Shown here: positions 1-10,072 of the stretch, piece after piece
Layout of the letters: each line of letters begins with the position of its first letter
Position numbering within the stretch: position 1 is the first letter of the stretch
The notes under the pieces: generated by a model
Seen by the model: the letters and a program-made list of their open reading frames with translations, nothing else
Database searches by the model: none
What the model was told of the DNA's origin: nothing
Made by a program: the position numbers and the translations under genes
NCBI GenBank assembly: GCA_005223085.1
Contig: NJBP01000051.1
Span: 1-14,393, forward strand
Length of the DNA stretch: 14,393 nt
Direction of reading: 5' to 3'
Source: Candidatus Aerophobetes bacterium Ae_b3b
GTDB lineage: Bacteria; Aerophobota; Aerophobia; Aerophobales; AE-B3A

Positions 1-639
1 AAGAATGGTTACCGGGAGAAAGTTTTCCTCATGACCAAGAACCACGGACGTGATGGAGTAGCGTTTCGGCAACAACTGGATGAAAGTCTCAGAAGACTTC
101 AGACCGACCAGATCGACCTGCTCCAATTCCATGAAATCATCCATGAGGGAGAGCCTGACCGGATCTTCTCCGAAGGTGCGATAGAGGAGGCAGTTAAAGC
201 ACGGGAGATCGGCAAGGTTAGGTTTATCGGTTTCACCGGCCACCGCTGGCCCCGCCTCCTGGGTCAGATGTTAGATAAGGATTTTCCCTGGGATACGATC
301 CAGTTTCCCACCAACCTGCTCGATAGGCACTACCGCAGTTTCACCAACGAGATCTTGCCCCGAGTGGCCGAGCGGAGGATGGGGATCATCGGGATGAAAA
401 GCCTCGCTGGTAGTCAGATCCTCAAGACTGGTGTGTCGCCCCAGGAGGCAATCACCTATGCCCTCTCCTTGCCCATCGATACCCTGGTGAGTGGGATAGA
501 CTCGCTTAAGGTTCTCGATCAGAACCTTACCATTGTCCGGAACTGGAAGCCGCTCTCAGAGGAGGGACAGAAGCATCTCCTGGAGCGGGTTGCCTCCTTT
601 GCACGTGATGGCCACCTTGAAGACTACAAGAGGACCTGA
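1..639 (+). CDS. Aldo/keto reductase, C-terminal part (5' truncated by window edge)
   Basis: The frame is open from the first base, so the gene starts before the window; 212 residues are visible. The protein is an NAD(P)H-dependent oxidoreductase of the aldo/keto reductase (AKR) TIM-barrel superfamily, cytosolic, substrate unknown. Visible family marks: the strand VFLMTK, whose Lys fits the catalytic lysine; DLLQFHE, whose His fits the active-site histidine; KVRFIGFTGH; and the late-barrel strand MGIIGMKSLAG followed by a region around TLVSGIDS that usually touches the cofactor. The catalytic Asp and Tyr would be in the missing N-terminal part. A 6-bp hairpin overlaps the stop codon (639-655) without a T run. 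The next gene has its own promoter, so this is probably a separate unit. The family call is secure; the substrate cannot be judged. Confidence 0.87.
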   Translation, partial: KNGYREKVFLMTKNHGRDGVAFRQQLDESLRRLQTDQIDLLQFHEIIHEGEPDRIFSEGAIEEAVKAREIGKVRFIGFTGHRWPRLLGQMLDKDFPWDTIQFPTNLLDRHYRSFTNEILPRVAERRMGIIGMKSLAGSQILKTGVSPQEAITYALSLPIDTLVSGIDSLKVLDQNLTIVRNWKPLSEEGQKHLLERVASFARDGHLEDYKRT

Positions 640-748
640 GAGAGGATCACTCTCTCCAAGAAGATGAGCAGATTTAAAGAGGCAGCGGTAAATTCCATCA
701 AAAAGAATCTCTACTAGCGCCTTGCAAACTTCTCTAAACTACGAGAGG

Positions 749-776
749 TTGACAACCACCGGGCTCTACCTAAAAT
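749..776 (+). promoter_or_regulatory. Sigma-70-type promoter for the glutaredoxin/FTR operon
   Basis: TTGACA at 749-754 is a perfect -35 box. After 16 bp comes TAAAAT (771-776, 5 of 6 matches to TATAAT). A start of transcription near 783 gives a leader of about 60 nt before the strong ribosome site GGAGGT (831-836) of the gene at 847. Predicted from sequence only. Confidence 0.55.
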
Positions 777-846
777 TATGCCCAGAGAATGCTATCCTCT
801 AACTTTGAAACGAAGCCTGATCTTCGTAAAGGAGGTGTAAGAGCTT

Positions 847-1125
847 ATGATGCAGCATGTACCCGGGGAAAATAAAGGAAAAATTACTCTTTATGCTCTA
901 AGTACCTGTGGGTGGTGTGAGAAAACTAAGAACTTTCTGGATAAGCTTGGAGTCGAGTACTCCTACGTGTACGTGGACCTTCTGGACGGTGAAGAACGAG
1001 AATCTGTTATGAATGAAGTTCGGCGTTGGAATCCCCATCGCTCTTTCCCCACTGTGGTTGCCAATGAGGAGACATGCATAGTAGGATACGATAAACAAAA
1101 GATCAAGGAGGCAATAGGGCTATGA
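847..1125 (+). CDS. Glutaredoxin-like thiol-disulfide redox protein
   Basis: This 92-aa protein has a thioredoxin-fold glutaredoxin signature. Strand [17 protein letters not shown] carries the redox pair Cys21-Gly-Trp-Cys24, followed by a helix, strand [13 protein letters not shown], and the segment SFPTVV with the expected cis-proline. It is cytosolic and should reduce disulfides or glutathione-like adducts. The ribosome site AAAGGAGGTG lies about 10 nt upstream. ATG codons at 847 and 850 are adjacent, so the start could be one codon later. The stop overlaps the next start by 4 bp (ATGA, 1122-1125), so the two genes are translationally coupled. The partner is a ferredoxin-dependent disulfide reductase, so this redoxin is probably its direct substrate rather than being reduced by an NADPH enzyme. 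The partner assignment is inference; the fold and active site are seen directly. Confidence 0.9.
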
Positions 1126-1651: not shown

Positions 1652-1683
1652 GTTCCTTAATGCCTGGATAAGGTTACCCTGAA

Positions 1684-1914
1684 CTAATACACAAATAACC
1701 TTGCGATTTCTTTTAGAAGTTGCTCTGAGTTGACAGAGATAATTCCCGTCTCTCTAGCGAGATTAGATAAAGATATCTGCGGAAACTCGCCTTCTTCTCT
1801 CTTGTAGAATTGTTTACTCCTTACTCTAAAAGACCAATCGTCCTCAGCAAAATACACAAAACGCCAATTCTGATTCGAGGCTTTCAGAACAATAAAGCTC
1901 TTGCGGAAGTAGAT
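1684..1914 (-). pseudogene. Open reverse-strand remnant of an unrecognised gene
   Basis: The gap between the FTR gene and the molybdoprotein gene (1626-1954) holds a reverse-strand frame free of stops for 76 codons, ending in TAG at 1684-1686 and bounded upstream by TGA at 1915-1917. It has no ATG; an internal GTG would give only 57 residues. The translation is balanced and coding-like, with blocks such as NQNWRFVYFAEDDWSFRV and LSNLARETGIISV. I do not recognise a family. With no start codon or ribosome site, the most likely reading is the 3' remnant of a gene lost by rearrangement; a chance open frame is possible. A TTGACA at 1730-1735 on the forward strand has no partner -10 box. Confidence 0.3.
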
Positions 1915-1954
1915 TCAGATTAAAGAAGTAATAAGAATCCCTAGGAGGTTTTTG

Positions 1955-2635
1955 ATGAAATGGAGAATAAGAATTAATCTTTTACTCGTTTTTGTATGTA
2001 TATTCACCTCTGTTTTTTCTTGGATGTCGGTGAGAGAAACTCCGGCCAATGAAGTCAAAGAACTTCAGCCAGTAGAAATTAGAGAGTATGAAGGCGAAAA
2101 ACTCTCTTCCTCAAAAACGGGTTTCCGAGAGAATTCCATAAGAGGGCCTCAATATGTGAAGAAAGAGGACTATCAACTTGAGATCACCGGGCTTGTGAAA
2201 AGTCCTCTCACCTATACTTATGATGAGGTACTAGCATATGACCAATATAAGAAGGTTGTCACCCTTAATTGCGTAGAGGGATGGAGTGCAACGGTATTAT
2301 GGGAAGGTGTGCTGGTAAGAGATGTTATCGCAAATGCTGGTATTCTTCCCCAGGCGAAAGTAGTCATTTTTTATGCCTACGATGGGTATTCCACCTCTTT
2401 CCCGTTAGAGCTTATTTTGGATAATGATATCATAATGGCCCACAAGATGAACGAGGTAGCCCTTCCACCAGAAAGGGGCTTTCCTTTTGCGCTTGTTGCC
2501 GAGGAAAAGTGGGGTTACAAGTGGATAAAGTGGATAACCAAGATTGAACTATCCGATGATGTCAACTACCGAGGTTATTGGGAGAGTAGAGGATATGCCA
2601 ATACTGGCGACCTGGATAAGAGTTTCCTTGATTAG
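1955..2635 (+). CDS. Molybdopterin-dependent oxidoreductase, sulfite oxidase/MsrP-like fold
   Basis: This 226-aa protein belongs to the sulfite-oxidase-type molybdopterin superfamily. An N-terminal hydrophobic segment (about residues 5-23) is a signal peptide or anchor, so the protein acts outside the membrane. The core runs from about residue 70: YQLEITGLVKSPLTYTYDEV, then VTLNCVEGWSATVLWEGV, in which Cys106 is the expected molybdenum ligand, then ERGFPFALVAEEKWGYKWIKW and the closing RGYWESRGY. ATG at 1955 is preferred over the in-frame TTG at 1952 because AGGAGG (1943-1948) sits 6 nt before the ATG. There is no twin-arginine motif, although such cofactor proteins are usually exported folded by Tat. 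A membrane protein gene follows after 12 bp, like the MsrP/MsrQ pair. Substrate unknown; methionine sulfoxide or another S- or N-oxide is a guess. Confidence 0.85.
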   Translation: MKWRIRINLLLVFVCIFTSVFSWMSVRETPANEVKELQPVEIREYEGEKLSSSKTGFRENSIRGPQYVKKEDYQLEITGLVKSPLTYTYDEVLAYDQYKKVVTLNCVEGWSATVLWEGVLVRDVIANAGILPQAKVVIFYAYDGYSTSFPLELILDNDIIMAHKMNEVALPPERGFPFALVAEEKWGYKWIKWITKIELSDDVNYRGYWESRGYANTGDLDKSFLD

Positions 2636-2647
2636 TCTGGTAGATAG

Positions 2648-2908
2648 ATGATAAGAAAGATTAGCTTCCAGTTTATAAGAAAAGTAATAGGGTGGTCTTT
2701 ATTTGTCTTGATGGTTCTTTTTATTATCACCGGATTCGGTATTACTCAATTCAGAACTGTGGAAAGAATAACCTTAGGTCTTTTGGGCAAAGCCCTATCA
2801 TTCAAGGTTCATCTCAAATTATGGATACCCCTGATAATCCTATTATCCCTGCACATCATATTTAGATGTATCTGGGAGTCACTGAGAAAAAGAAGAGGCA
2901 GACAGTGA
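2648..2908 (+). CDS. Small two-helix membrane protein, putative heme-b partner of the molybdoprotein
   Basis: The 86-aa protein has two predicted membrane helices (about residues 14-34 and 55-73) and a basic tail ending RKRRGRQ. The second helix carries His55 and His69. This H-x13-H spacing is the one seen in four-helix b-type cytochromes that place one heme at each face of the membrane. The gene starts 12 bp after the molybdoprotein stop and is almost certainly co-transcribed with it. It probably anchors the enzyme or passes electrons to it from the quinone pool, as MsrQ does for MsrP. It is far smaller than MsrQ, so dimerisation would be needed to complete a heme site. A truncated homologue lies at 6465-6593, and a protein with the same H-x13-H layout is encoded at 9498-9707. 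DUF4405-like membership is a tentative guess. Confidence 0.7.
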   Translation: MIRKISFQFIRKVIGWSLFVLMVLFIITGFGITQFRTVERITLGLLGKALSFKVHLKLWIPLIILLSLHIIFRCIWESLRKRRGRQ

Positions 2909-3014
2909 CGCTATCTCTCCTTCTGTATACCAGAGTCTTCGGTGGATAGTGAAGTAGCAAAAGAGATAGAGAGTCTAATCCTGGTGAAAGAGAATCTAGA
3001 GTCAGAGAATAGAG

Positions 3015-3218
3015 ATGTTTCCAAGTAGAGAATTAATACAGATAGGTTTCTTGGCTAGTCTGGCAGCCGGTCTTGCCACCGGGGCCGGAGCTATGCTCTT
3101 TGTCGTCTGTGATGAACTCATCCCTGAGAGCCACCGAAAGGGCCACGAGCGAGACGCCACCTTCGGCCTCATAACCGGCTTCATCATTATGATGGTGCTG
3201 GATACGGTTCTGGGTTAG
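3015..3218 (+). pseudogene. ZIP-family metal transporter, C-terminal fragment
   Basis: The 67 codons encode the end of a ZIP (zinc/iron permease) transporter. The recognisable part is GAGAMLFVVCDELIPESHRK followed by a glycine-rich closing membrane helix ending MMVLDTVLG. Intact ZIP proteins are about 240-300 residues with eight helices; here only the last two or so remain. An in-frame TAG at 2997-2999 closes the frame upstream and the ATG at 3015 has no good ribosome site. It is therefore a remnant, and the fragment should not transport metal alone. It lies at the left edge of the HEPN/phosphoesterase cassette and supports the view that this was a rearrangement point. Confidence 0.75.
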
Positions 3219-3363
3219 TGGGGGATGATTGCTGAGAACTTATTGCAGATTGTAGAGCCAAAATCAGAAGATATCTTTTAATTCTTTCGAATAATCGGAA
3301 CCTCGTCATAATAAACTACCGCTTGGGCGAACTGGATGTCTTTTCTAGCGAAAGGAGGACGCC

Positions 3364-4590
3364 ATGAAGGCTTCGAATTCTCCGTCGGCTGAAGAAAGCA
3401 AAAGGAGAGGATTATTAGGGGCTCTTGATTTTCACCAGTGCTCAAAATCTAAAAAAGCAGAAGAAGTCGAGTATCAACTGTATAGTTGGGGTGAAGTTTA
3501 CGCTATTTTCTCTGGTGATCGCGGGCATTCAACAGAGGACCGGCATATTCTCAGGTGCTTACCCTTCAAGTTGTTCAGCTCTTCAATTCCCGAGGGTCCA
3601 TTACCGCAGAAGTTATGTTTAACCTTCAGAGCACCTCTCGAGACAAGGCACAAGGGGCATCTGGTTGGGAATTTTCCTCACGAAATAGCCAAGGAATTTA
3701 CTGCTTTTCTATCCCTTATTACACGTCGCAGGATTTTTGTCACAAAAAAGACCCGATCTGATGGTTTGCCCATGGAAGAGGAAGTGGAGCCGTATCAACA
3801 CTCACACTTTCAGGAAAAACAGAGGGATAAAATGATTAAACCAAAGGAAATCAAGCAACTCTTGGATAAGCTTCAGGCAATGGATGAACACATTGCCAAT
3901 GGTTTCATTTTAGGAATGCGACTATATCACTCAGCCACTGAAATGATGTACACGGAACCGGAGTTCTCCTATCTTCTTCTTATAGCGTGTCTAGAGGCGA
4001 TTTCTTCAGCTGTCTTTCGACAGTGGAGAGAGCCTGATGAACAAAAGTTTTTGGATTCGAGAATTCCGGGATGGAGGAAAATCGGAGGGGATCTGTGCTC
4101 AGAAAAAAGGGAAGAACTAAAGGCATTGTTATTGAAAAATGAGAGGTTTACGTTTCAGAAGCTCGCGGGCTTTGTTACGAAGAATGTACCTGAACATTTT
4201 TGGAAGGAAACTGAGGATGATGCAAAGCCGCATTATTTAACGAGAACAGTATGGCCTGACCCCAGTGATTCAGGCCCAGAGCACATTTTCTACTCACCTG
4301 CTACACTACAGGATTGGGAAAGAATAAAAAAAGAAGATTTGGTTCTAGTAATGAGAAACATTTATAAGGTAAGATCTCAGCTTATCCATAATGGAATTCG
4401 GCTACCGGAAAGTATAGTAATCGGACACTCCCGAGAGGTAGGTGCCGAGGCGTCTGTGGAATTGACCGAAGCTATTATGAAAAACAAGAGAAAAATAAGT
4501 TTGAACATTCCGCCTCTCTTGACTTTTGAGAAGTTGGTTAGCTATTCCATGGTGGAGTTTCTCCGTAAGTATCAAAATGCTGGGGTTTGA
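3364..4590 (+). CDS. HEPN-domain (ApeA-like) candidate ribonuclease or defence effector
   Basis: This 408-aa soluble protein has a strong ribosome site (GGAGG at 3354-3358, 5 nt before ATG). No membrane segment or signal is visible. The C-terminal half looks like a HEPN helical domain of the large ApeA-like kind: a helix FSYLLLIACLEAISSAVF at about 201-218, then YKVRSQLIHNG, where Arg337 and His342 form the R-x4-H motif of HEPN ribonucleases. The N-terminal 145 residues are a mixed strand/helix region with FPHEIAKEFTAFLSLITRRR, unassigned. HEPN proteins of this type often cut RNA in toxin-antitoxin, abortive-infection and other conflict systems. The gene lies 73 bp upstream of a phosphoesterase-ParB fusion on the same strand. 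I infer a two-gene system. The HEPN call rests on the motif and surrounding pattern, not on a profile search; the residue after Arg is Ser rather than the common Asn/His/Asp. Confidence 0.65.
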   Translation: MKASNSPSAEESKRRGLLGALDFHQCSKSKKAEEVEYQLYSWGEVYAIFSGDRGHSTEDRHILRCLPFKLFSSSIPEGPLPQKLCLTFRAPLETRHKGHLVGNFPHEIAKEFTAFLSLITRRRIFVTKKTRSDGLPMEEEVEPYQHSHFQEKQRDKMIKPKEIKQLLDKLQAMDEHIANGFILGMRLYHSATEMMYTEPEFSYLLLIACLEAISSAVFRQWREPDEQKFLDSRIPGWRKIGGDLCSEKREELKALLLKNERFTFQKLAGFVTKNVPEHFWKETEDDAKPHYLTRTVWPDPSDSGPEHIFYSPATLQDWERIKKEDLVLVMRNIYKVRSQLIHNGIRLPESIVIGHSREVGAEASVELTEAIMKNKRKISLNIPPLLTFEKLVSYSMVEFLRKYQNAGV

Positions 4591-4601
4591 AGACATATGA
4601 G

Positions 4602-4629
4602 TTGTAGAACGTTAGCACTTTTTTATACT
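4602..4629 (+). promoter_or_regulatory. Weak candidate promoter before the phosphoesterase gene
   Basis: TTGTAG (4602-4607, 3 of 6 matches to the -35 consensus) and TATACT (4624-4629, 5 of 6 matches to -10) are 16 bp apart. If real, the second gene of the cassette has its own transcript with a leader of about 28 nt as well as read-through from the HEPN gene. The poor -35 box keeps confidence low. Confidence 0.25.
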
Positions 4630-4649
4630 ACTTTCATATCCAATCCTCG

Positions 4650-4666
4650 AAGGAGTCAAGAAAATT
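4650..4666 (+). promoter_or_regulatory. Ribosome site and apparent ATT start codon
   Basis: AAGGAG at 4650-4655 is followed after 8 nt by ATT (4664-4666), then AAG ATA CTG GCT GTT TCT GAT. ATT stands exactly where related phosphoesterases begin with Met before KILAVSD. The in-frame codons back to the TAG at 4613-4615 include no ATG, GTG or TTG. The first TTG (4703) would remove strand 1 and the motif I aspartate. The start is therefore either a rare ATT initiator or a G-to-T change or error in ATG. Confidence 0.6.
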
Positions 4667-6127
4667 AAGATACTGGCTGTTTCTGATAAAATTGAACCCA
4701 CCTTGTACGAGTACTTCGATAAGAAAAGATATTCTGAAATAGATTTGATTCTTTCAGCCGGAGACTTAAGACCTGAGTATCTCTCTTTTTTAGTGGATAT
4801 GCTGAATAAACGCTGTTATTATGTGAGAGGCAACCACGACATAATATACAATGTGGAACCACCCTTGGGCTGCGTGGATATAGACGGGAAAGTGGTCAGT
4901 CATAAGGGTATTAGAATTCTTGGACTGGGAGGTTCTATGTGGTACGGGGGAAGGGGAGTTGAACATACTGATTGGCAAATGCGCTGGAAGGTATGGAAGG
5001 CAAGGTTCCAGATTTGGAGAAGGCGAGGAGTGGATATTGTTCTCACGCACGCTCCTCCCAAGGGTATTCATGATGGGAAAGACCTCTGTCACAGAGGATT
5101 TCGCTCTTTTCTCAAGCTAATTGAAAAATATAAACCCCGCTACCTGATTCATGGCCATGTTCACAAAAGTTATGGCTACAGTGAAGAAAAGATAACTCAG
5201 GTTCAAGAGACCAAGGTGGTAAACGTTCAGGGAAAACATGTTCTGGAGATACAGCCTCGCATGAGGAAGAAAATCACCAAAAAAGAAGGATGGTGGAATA
5301 CTGTCTTTAAGTTAAGGCAGGATTCCCTTAAATCCTTTTATGCGGAATCTCGGGCCCGAAAGTATCTTGATTCAATTGATAGAGGCATACAGACTGTCAA
5401 GTCAGATAACATCGTGGGGAGCGTAGGTAGACCTTTAGATTTCAGTAGGAATTTCTCTATCAAGGGTGTAGATGGAAAGCCTCACATTCAATCTAGAGTG
5501 AAAAGTATAGAAGAAGCCATGCAAGAAGGCAGGCCTCTTCCCGCAGTAGAGCTTTATAAAATTGATGATGAATACTATGTGTTGGACGGTCATCATCGCA
5601 TAATTGCTGCAAAAGGGCAGGGGCAGAAGTTTATTGATGCTCATATTGTCGAATATCTTCCTCTGGGTGATGACTCAAGAAGGCTTCTTATTCAAAAAAG
5701 AATCGAATTCGAGGATGAGACAGGACTGGGGGGGATCAACCTCTTGCATCGGCGGGATTACGATAAGCTACTACTTCAGATAAGGAACCATAAAAATCGT
5801 ATTGAGGAAAAGCTAAAAGAAAAGGTCACATTAAAGGAAGCAGCCCGAGATTGGTTTAGCGTATTCTACTGCCCGGTAACGGAGAAAATAAAGAAACTCA
5901 AGCTCAGGCAGTATTTTCCCAAAGCTACCATAGGGGACATGTATGTTTATTTGTGCGACCAGGCAAGGCTGCGCAGCGAAAAGAGGCTGGAGCATACCTG
6001 CAATTTGCCGGAAGCACTTGAGGAGATCGGCATACTGGCAAAGACTACCCAGATTATTCTTTTAGATGAGGGGTTTAAAGAAAGGACTATAAGAGCTTTT
6101 CGTTCTCTTTTTCGTCTGGGAAAATGA
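4664..6127 (+). CDS. Metallophosphoesterase fused to a ParB/DUF4032-like domain
   Basis: The protein has 487 residues if it starts at the ATT. Residues 2-205 are a calcineurin-like metallophosphoesterase: motif I at SD8, motif II at GD34, motif III at GNHD (Asn57, His58), then VDIVLTHAPP and YLIHGHVHKS supplying the late metal-binding histidines. Motif I is SDKIEP, so the usual D-x-H histidine is absent. After a basic linker, the segment from VGSVGRPLDF through PLPAVELYKI to YYVLDGHHRIIAA matches the ParB N-terminal/sulfiredoxin-like fold with its DGHHR loop. The remainder (FEDETGL, AARDWFSVFYCPVTEKI, then a helical tail) resembles DUF4032-type proteins. Such proteins could act on phosphoesters, nucleotides or nucleic acid; the substrate is unknown. 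It lies downstream of the HEPN gene. Domain 1 is secure, domain 2 likely, the DUF4032 link tentative. Confidence 0.75.
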   Translation: MKILAVSDKIEPTLYEYFDKKRYSEIDLILSAGDLRPEYLSFLVDMLNKRCYYVRGNHDIIYNVEPPLGCVDIDGKVVSHKGIRILGLGGSMWYGGRGVEHTDWQMRWKVWKARFQIWRRRGVDIVLTHAPPKGIHDGKDLCHRGFRSFLKLIEKYKPRYLIHGHVHKSYGYSEEKITQVQETKVVNVQGKHVLEIQPRMRKKITKKEGWWNTVFKLRQDSLKSFYAESRARKYLDSIDRGIQTVKSDNIVGSVGRPLDFSRNFSIKGVDGKPHIQSRVKSIEEAMQEGRPLPAVELYKIDDEYYVLDGHHRIIAAKGQGQKFIDAHIVEYLPLGDDSRRLLIQKRIEFEDETGLGGINLLHRRDYDKLLLQIRNHKNRIEEKLKEKVTLKEAARDWFSVFYCPVTEKIKKLKLRQYFPKATIGDMYVYLCDQARLRSEKRLEHTCNLPEALEEIGILAKTTQIILLDEGFKERTIRAFRSLFRLGK

Positions 6128-6208: not shown

Positions 6209-6344
6209 ATCGAAAGCTCTTTCTGAACTTCCTCTTCCGGTATGGAGATGTCGGGTCTGTGGATACCTTTGCGCAAGGGAGACTCCTCCAGAGGCCTGCC
6301 CCATATGTAAAGCGAAAAGAGACAGATTTGAGAAGTTCACCTAA
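6209..6344 (+). pseudogene. Orphan rubredoxin domain, partial copy of the FTR-rubredoxin gene
   Basis: This is a second copy of the last 45 codons of the gene at 1122, including the stop. All four iron-binding cysteines and the protein sequence are kept; the single base change is silent. The frame stays open upstream to about 6165 but offers no ATG, GTG or TTG start, although a purine-rich GAGGAGG lies at 6202-6208. The FTR domain is missing. It is most likely a non-expressed remnant. A lone rubredoxin from a non-standard start is conceivable but unsupported. Confidence 0.8.
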
Positions 6345-6370
6345 GAGCTATTTTTCCCTACCATTTACCT
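6209..6370 (+). repeat. Direct repeat, copy B
   Basis: Second copy of 1490-1651, with five mismatches over 162 bp. Beyond 6370 the similarity jumps to a diverged copy of the molybdoprotein end, matching 2558 onward. About 900 bp present between the corresponding points of copy A is missing here. Confidence 0.95.
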
Positions 6371-9707: not shown

Positions 9708-9781
9708 CTATTCCTAAATCTAATTTTCACCTCTTGAGTTCGGTACCCTCCTTAAATTTCCGGGGTAGCAGGAGGTTCAAG

Positions 9782-10072
9782 TTGGCAGAGATTATTATTA
9801 TAGGTGGAGGACCGGCCGGACTTAGCGCGGGCATATATACTGCCAGAGCTGGAAGAGAGACCCTCATCATTGACAACGGAGACTGTACGGCATGCAAAAT
9901 TGACCGGCTGGATAACTACCTGGGATTTCCCCGGGTTTACGCTACCGGAGACTGCACGGGAGCAAACAGACAGATAGCCATCGCTATGGGAGAAGGCGCC
10001 GATACTGCGATTAATCTCATCTCCGAGCTGAAAGGAACAAGGTGGGTAGGTTACGGAGGAAGATTCAAATAA
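9782..10072 (+). CDS. Thioredoxin-reductase-like FAD protein with a large in-frame internal deletion (probable pseudogene)
   Basis: The frame encodes 96 residues. Residues 2-50 are the N-terminal FAD-binding part of a thioredoxin-reductase-like flavoprotein: EIIIIGGGPAGLSAGIYTAR (GxGxxG-type nucleotide loop), then LIID and RLDNYLGFP. From residue 51, RVYATGDCTGANRQIAIAMG is the second FAD-contacting motif, found near the C-terminus of such enzymes, followed by the last helix. About 200 residues between them are missing, including the NAD(P)H domain and the usual site of the redox-active CxxC. The join after GFP keeps the frame. A Cys35-x2-Cys38 pair remains. TTG at 9782 is preferred as start because GGAGG lies 6 nt upstream (9771-9775). 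It cannot be a normal reductase; a minimal FAD binder is possible but unlikely. Confidence 0.7.
   Translation: MAEIIIIGGGPAGLSAGIYTARAGRETLIIDNGDCTACKIDRLDNYLGFPRVYATGDCTGANRQIAIAMGEGADTAINLISELKGTRWVGYGGRFK

Follow-up and report, generated by a model that had tools for sequence, protein, structure and literature searches.

The window, i.e. the whole stretch of 14,393 nucleotides that was analysed, is one contig (C46) of a draft genome (G000) that consists of 86 contigs and is 88.6% complete. It contains a gene for what is very probably a HEPN-family protein, followed by a gene encoding a metallophosphoesterase fused to a ParB-fold domain, and the original prediction joined the two into a two-gene cassette, a candidate conflict or defence system. 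The features at the locus are the following.

3015-3218, + strand: ZIP-type metal transporter gene of which a remnant is left, the left flank of the insertion (alignment to locus L015 of the related genome G002)
3225-4631, + strand: segment of ~1.4 kb carrying the HEPN gene only, which corresponds to ~50 bp at the syntenic locus of G002 (alignment to L015)
3364-4590, + strand: HEPN-family protein, 408 aa, with an ATG start and a strong AAAGGAGG ribosome-binding site upstream
3460-3789, + strand: N-terminal region, residues 33-142, predicted to be mostly beta, a putative sensor (model of very low confidence, pLDDT 33)
3883-4578, + strand: C-terminal, all-helical HEPN domain, residues ~174-405 (model of residues 151-408)
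3994-3996, + strand: E211, an invariant acid, counterpart of the acid of HEPN helix 2 (six-sequence alignment)
4372-4389, + strand: R337-S-Q-L-I-H342, the active-site motif (Rx4H), located where a helix ends (alignment and model)
4664-6127, + strand: metallophosphoesterase-ParB-fold fusion, 487 aa, with a likely ATT start preceded by AAGGAG
4664-5263, + strand: phosphoesterase domain (PF00149, E = 3.1e-11; family alignment)
5306-6103, + strand: ParB-fold domain with a DGHHR motif at 5585-5599 (profile matches and relatives)

The 408-residue reading frame that had been reported for the first gene is present, with Arg337 and His342 spaced as R-x4-H. HEPN proteins are characterized by an Rx4-6H motif plus an additional acidic residue (PMC3710099), to which R337/H342 and E211 of the window protein correspond. 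No real match to this protein was found in Pfam, NCBIfam, PADLOC or PHROGs, and searches of phages, viral contigs and the PDB by sequence returned none, save one chance match in the PDB. A scan of contigs, in turn, recovered a single relative from a Methanosarcinales archaeon, which aligns over its full length and is 63% identical in the alignment. When this archaeal protein was used as the query, it matched a HEPN-annotated protein from a Pseudoalteromonas plasmid (WP_004587011.1, E = 0.01), which itself led to a HEPN protein from an Exiguobacterium plasmid (WP_262415839.1). The comparison by hhalign of the window and archaeal pair with these two plasmid proteins, both of which already carry the HEPN annotation, gave a probability of 93.9 and an E value of 1.6e-7 over residues 94-402. 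The plasmid proteins share this homologous region and identical invariant residues with the window protein, but they are only about 20% identical to it and have other neighbours, and no tested function was found for either of them. Searching genomes with the two-sequence alignment at E values up to 1 yielded chiefly chance matches; a four-sequence profile run against 386 genomes added two further real relatives (in genomes G346 and G187), and another relative, bacterial, sits on an IMG/VR viral contig. The relatives (P0003, P0012, L051, L055/L067 and L056) are 17-63% identical to the window protein, and the six-sequence alignment has 13 invariant positions, including E211, Y334, R337, S338, H342 and G344.

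The structural evidence points the same way. A first model of the protein, built from two sequences, was useless (pLDDT 33), and a model of residues 151-408 built from three sequences (pTM 0.64, pLDDT 53) is fit for reading the helix layout only; it consists of a helical domain in which the R337/H342 motif lies at a helix end and E211 on a helix. In a VIA-align comparison with 987 PDB chains, the top match was the HEPN domain protein 4nqf (Z 5.8, rmsd 5.2, 124 residues aligned), the sole chain at Z 5 or more, with a score that is within the chance range for helical bundles, and Foldseek searches of PDB and BFVD with the model gave nothing significant. The Z score of 5.8 is weak when taken alone; combined with the motif and with relatives that carry the HEPN annotation, it supports the assignment as HEPN. 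Of the checks that had been proposed on that assignment, profile searches support it through hhalign relatives that are annotated as HEPN, and structure prediction agrees with it weakly, through a low-confidence helical model with 4nqf as its top match. The first protein is therefore very probably a HEPN protein, belonging to a small family outside Pfam, PADLOC and PHROGs, and a putative RNase.

The likeness to ApeA that was originally proposed holds weakly. Similar to ApeA (HEPN_Apea, PF18739, PADLOC PDC-S58), the window protein appears to have a beta-rich N-terminal part that is followed by a helical domain, in which a Glu and the R-x4-H motif are conserved, and in an hhalign comparison of the window family with ApeA the catalytic R and H fall in register, at a probability of 19%. 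Membership of PF18739, however, does not follow, as this profile has no match to 3364-4590 even at an E value of 10. In addition, the N-terminal part, with a beta prediction that comes from a very poor model, is ~150 aa long and thus about half the size of ApeA-NTD1, which spans ~300 aa (PMC3710099). Judged from the model, the window protein may have an ApeA-NTD plus HEPN layout. A true ApeA-type HEPN protein (PF18739, PDC-S58) is encoded elsewhere in the same genome, on contig C20 (L057:5964-7355), with a SIR2-like gene near it (L057:4308-5375). With regard to HEPN-MNT toxin-antitoxin systems, no adjoining nucleotidyltransferase gene was found, the neighbours in the window being the ZIP remnant and the phosphoesterase-ParB gene.

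The origin of the HEPN gene is best seen by comparison with G002, in which a ZIP transporter gene is followed by the phosphoesterase-ParB gene with ~50 bp between them and no HEPN gene. On the left of the insertion, window positions 1653-3092 correspond to L015 11629-10190 (95%) and 3087-3224 to L015 9643-9506 (81%), and on the right, positions 4632-6106 are colinear with L015 at 89% identity. The full ZIP gene of G002 matches PF02535; in the remnant, the N-terminal 27 residues are fused in frame to the C-terminal ~43, with the loss of ~547 bp of the middle, and an intact paralogue is present in the source genome (G000:C59:7317-8063). The edges of the insertion show no clear target-site duplication, terminal inverted repeat or transposon-type ends. 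The comparison set for the phylum comprised 17 genomes, and the HEPN gene was found in none of the 16 besides the source genome. Because G002 is colinear and does not carry the gene, and because the gene is absent from the other 16 genomes of the phylum, its acquisition as a single gene is the best reading.

The archaeal HEPN gene is located between a DUF1156 methyltransferase gene and a DUF262/HEC-05 gene (GmrSD-like); close by are genes for an SMC-like ATPase and for a helicase resembling DrmD/HmaA. Its full-length likeness to the window protein does not extend to the partner, which is a DUF262-HNH (GmrSD-like) gene that overlaps it by 26 bp and not a phosphoesterase-ParB gene. The surrounding region (L014:1763-14714) forms a defence island in the archaeon, with genes for a DUF1156 methyltransferase, HEC-05, an LmuB-like ATPase and a DrmD/HmaA-like helicase and a small HEPN gene. 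Six HEPN loci other than that of the window were collected and counted as five, since L055 and L067 are one gene; one of the five lies in this island and one on the viral contig, and several relatives on plasmids and chromosomes occur by themselves. Based on the island context and the relative in the viral contig, a role in defence is likely, if indirectly argued, and the original conflict or defence claim is plausible for the HEPN protein alone, not for a joint system with the phosphoesterase-ParB protein. It has to be noted that the same protein could be no defence effector at all but an RNA-binding or RNA-processing protein, or a decayed cargo gene, without abortive function. We consider this unlikely: the single defence-island context among the relatives and the several that stand alone would agree with it, but the patchy distribution, the sharing between archaeon and bacteria, the viral and plasmid contexts and the strict conservation of the active-site motif are in keeping with a conflict gene.

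As to the second gene, the frame that ends at 6127 contains no ATG, GTG or TTG before the TTG at 4703. The conserved N-terminus, IKILAVSD, begins at the ATT at 4664, behind AAGGAG, and the equivalent start codon is ATT in G002 and G006 and ATG in G007. The strand and frame originally given for this gene are correct, and the distance of 73 bp to the HEPN gene matches provided that translation begins at ATT 4664. In the phosphoesterase domain, which is of the calcineurin type, blocks II-V (GD, GNHD, THAPP and GHVH) are kept, and in block I the Asp of DxH is present and the His absent. The protein thereby shares the GD, GNHD, H and GHxH blocks with the PF00149 and PADLOC PDC-S10 phosphoesterases and with MPPED2 (PDB 3rl4), from which it differs in the missing block I His and, in the window lineage, in the fusion to a ParB-fold domain. 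The ParB half matches the PHROG ParB profile (E = 7.7e-7) and, in the window, GmrSD_N (E = 0.04), and its relatives give weak matches to DUF4032, ParBc_2 and DUF1015. The description as a metallophosphoesterase fused to a ParB/DUF4032-like domain is thus sound for the first half, where the PF00149 match is significant; the ParB part amounts to a fold resemblance, with DUF4032 matched weakly and in relatives only. The DGHHR motif region and weak profile matches are shared with SerK, SbnI, DUF1015, DUF4032 and ParBc_2. The similarity to SerK and SbnI, however, is below significance (PDB E values of 0.2-0.9), and the window domain, unlike these, is tied to a phosphoesterase gene. SerK, an ADP-dependent free-serine kinase, was itself earlier annotated as ParB (PMC5120207).

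The two halves of the second protein have a history of their own. They are fused in G000 and G002, and likewise in G006 apart from one internal stop; in G007 and G012 they are in-frame reading frames with one stop between them, and G013 and G014 carry them as separate, adjacent genes, with the ParB-fold part being a separate gene also in G033. The fusion in the window arose when the stop codon separating the neighbouring genes was lost. The pair is conserved in the phylum of the window, and outside it 20 of the searched genomes contain both halves, which lie side by side in 12 of these (our count). On Tsukamurella and Cetobacterium plasmids, the pair is found behind genes for sugar ABC transporters or glycogen phosphorylase, and some members of the phosphoesterase family adjoin ribosomal protein genes. 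The sugar-gene neighbours point to a putative function in metabolism or its regulation. A Collinsella plasmid record (L061:1088-3711) also has a ParB-fold signal, and there a gene for a BMP-family ABC substrate-binding protein overlaps the phosphoesterase gene; this "plasmid" is 900 kb long and also carries ribosomal protein genes.

The pair could also be a defence module in its own right, as PDC-S10, a candidate profile of PADLOC, hits the window phosphoesterase with an E value of 4.5e-16. The same profile, however, hits each of the seven family members that were tested, including those located in sugar-transport operons or next to genes for ribosomal proteins, and because every member matches, the hit is no evidence of defence; PDC-S10 was rejected as proof for being unspecific within the family. 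Given also that the pair is conserved across the phylum, a defence module of this kind is quite improbable. No defence context was found at the phosphoesterase/ParB loci examined, which lie in sugar operons or among housekeeping genes instead, and no publication was found that deals with PDC-S10 or with phosphoesterase-ParB pairs.

The proposal of one system made of both genes, in which the HEPN protein would be the RNase effector and the phosphoesterase-ParB protein would sense it, remove its signal or neutralize it, has some features of the locus in its favour: the genes are close together on the same strand, there is no terminator-like site between them, and the gene that overlaps the archaeal relative also encodes a ParB-superfamily domain (DUF262). 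Adjacency, however, is not conserved. Profile searches of six-frame translations, in which each set of loci was searched for the family of the other gene, revealed a phosphoesterase or ParB domain at 0/5 other HEPN loci and a HEPN gene at 0/14 phosphoesterase/ParB loci, so that among the genomes examined the pair is adjacent only in the window. Furthermore, G346 holds both families on different contigs, G002 has the phosphoesterase-ParB gene without the HEPN gene, and the phosphoesterase and ParB halves are conserved beside other neighbours in distant bacteria. The cassette claim, and with it the claim that the second protein senses, modifies or neutralizes the first, is not supported by these observations, and the conserved adjacency expected from a survey of gene neighbourhoods did not materialize. 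As to enrichment in defence islands, the other proposed check, one of the five HEPN loci lies in the archaeal island and one on a viral contig, and the phosphoesterase/ParB loci lie in sugar operons or among housekeeping genes. The two genes are best read as neighbours by insertion and not as a new two-part defence system, and we see very little chance that the two-gene reading is correct. A similarly small chance may be given to a variant in which the HEPN family works generally with ParB-fold partners and the insertion recruited the resident nucleotide-binding phosphoesterase as a regulator, a reading based on the fact that in both of the closest members the gene that comes next encodes a ParB-superfamily domain (DUF262 in the archaeon, phosphoesterase-ParB in the window).

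The locus is thus probably made up of two unrelated units, an acquired, stand-alone gene of the HEPN RNase type and, beside it, a vertically inherited and probably metabolic or regulatory phosphoesterase-ParB protein. In the model that we propose, the HEPN gene would have entered the locus alone, by insertion between the ZIP and phosphoesterase genes, and its product would combine a beta-rich N-terminal part, probably a sensor, with the C-terminal helical HEPN domain. The latter would dimerize and cleave RNA at a composite R337/H342 site assisted by E211, the protein staying dormant until the N-terminal part meets a trigger, such as infection, following which growth would be shut down. The phosphoesterase-ParB protein would act independently of it, most likely hydrolysing a phosphorylated small molecule or a phosphoprotein as part of the regulation of metabolism or transport; its ParB-fold part would bind a nucleotide or phospho-ligand. 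The analysis shows the sequences and their conservation, the insertion as compared with G002, and the conservation and fusion history of the phosphoesterase-ParB pair; the RNase activity, trigger and defence role of the HEPN protein and the substrate of the phosphoesterase-ParB protein are what we infer here.

In practical terms, one candidate two-gene defence system is struck off, and two smaller leads remain. The first is a HEPN family that no Pfam, PADLOC or PHROG model covers; it is shared by bacteria and an archaeon and occurs also on plasmids and a viral contig, and it is a candidate stand-alone anti-phage RNase. The second is a conserved, unexplained phosphoesterase-ParB-fold gene pair, probably metabolic, which PDC-S10 of PADLOC may over-call as defence.

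The draft genome contains near-duplicate contigs, so that the synteny reading depends in part on an imperfect assembly. Window positions 1-930 share 96% identity with the end of another contig of this genome, C59 (L068:5572-6501), possibly through a segmental duplication or strain mixture; given this match and the internal deletions in several window genes, local rearrangement or strain mixture is possible. That the adjacency of the HEPN and phosphoesterase genes is itself an artefact of a mixed-strain assembly, as the C59 match, a 162-bp repeat and the truncated genes of the window might suggest, is highly unlikely, because in G002 the two flanks of the insertion belong to a single colinear locus and the edges of the insertion are free of repeats. 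The 162-bp direct repeat (97%) occupies positions 1490-1651 and 6209-6370 and is the end of a ferredoxin-thioredoxin-reductase/rubredoxin reading frame; behind the copy at 6209-6370 lie diverged remnants of molybdopterin oxidoreductase and membrane-protein genes. Farther along the window, at 9734-10072, a thioredoxin-reductase-like reading frame of 112 aa apparently has its N- and C-terminal ends joined without the middle.
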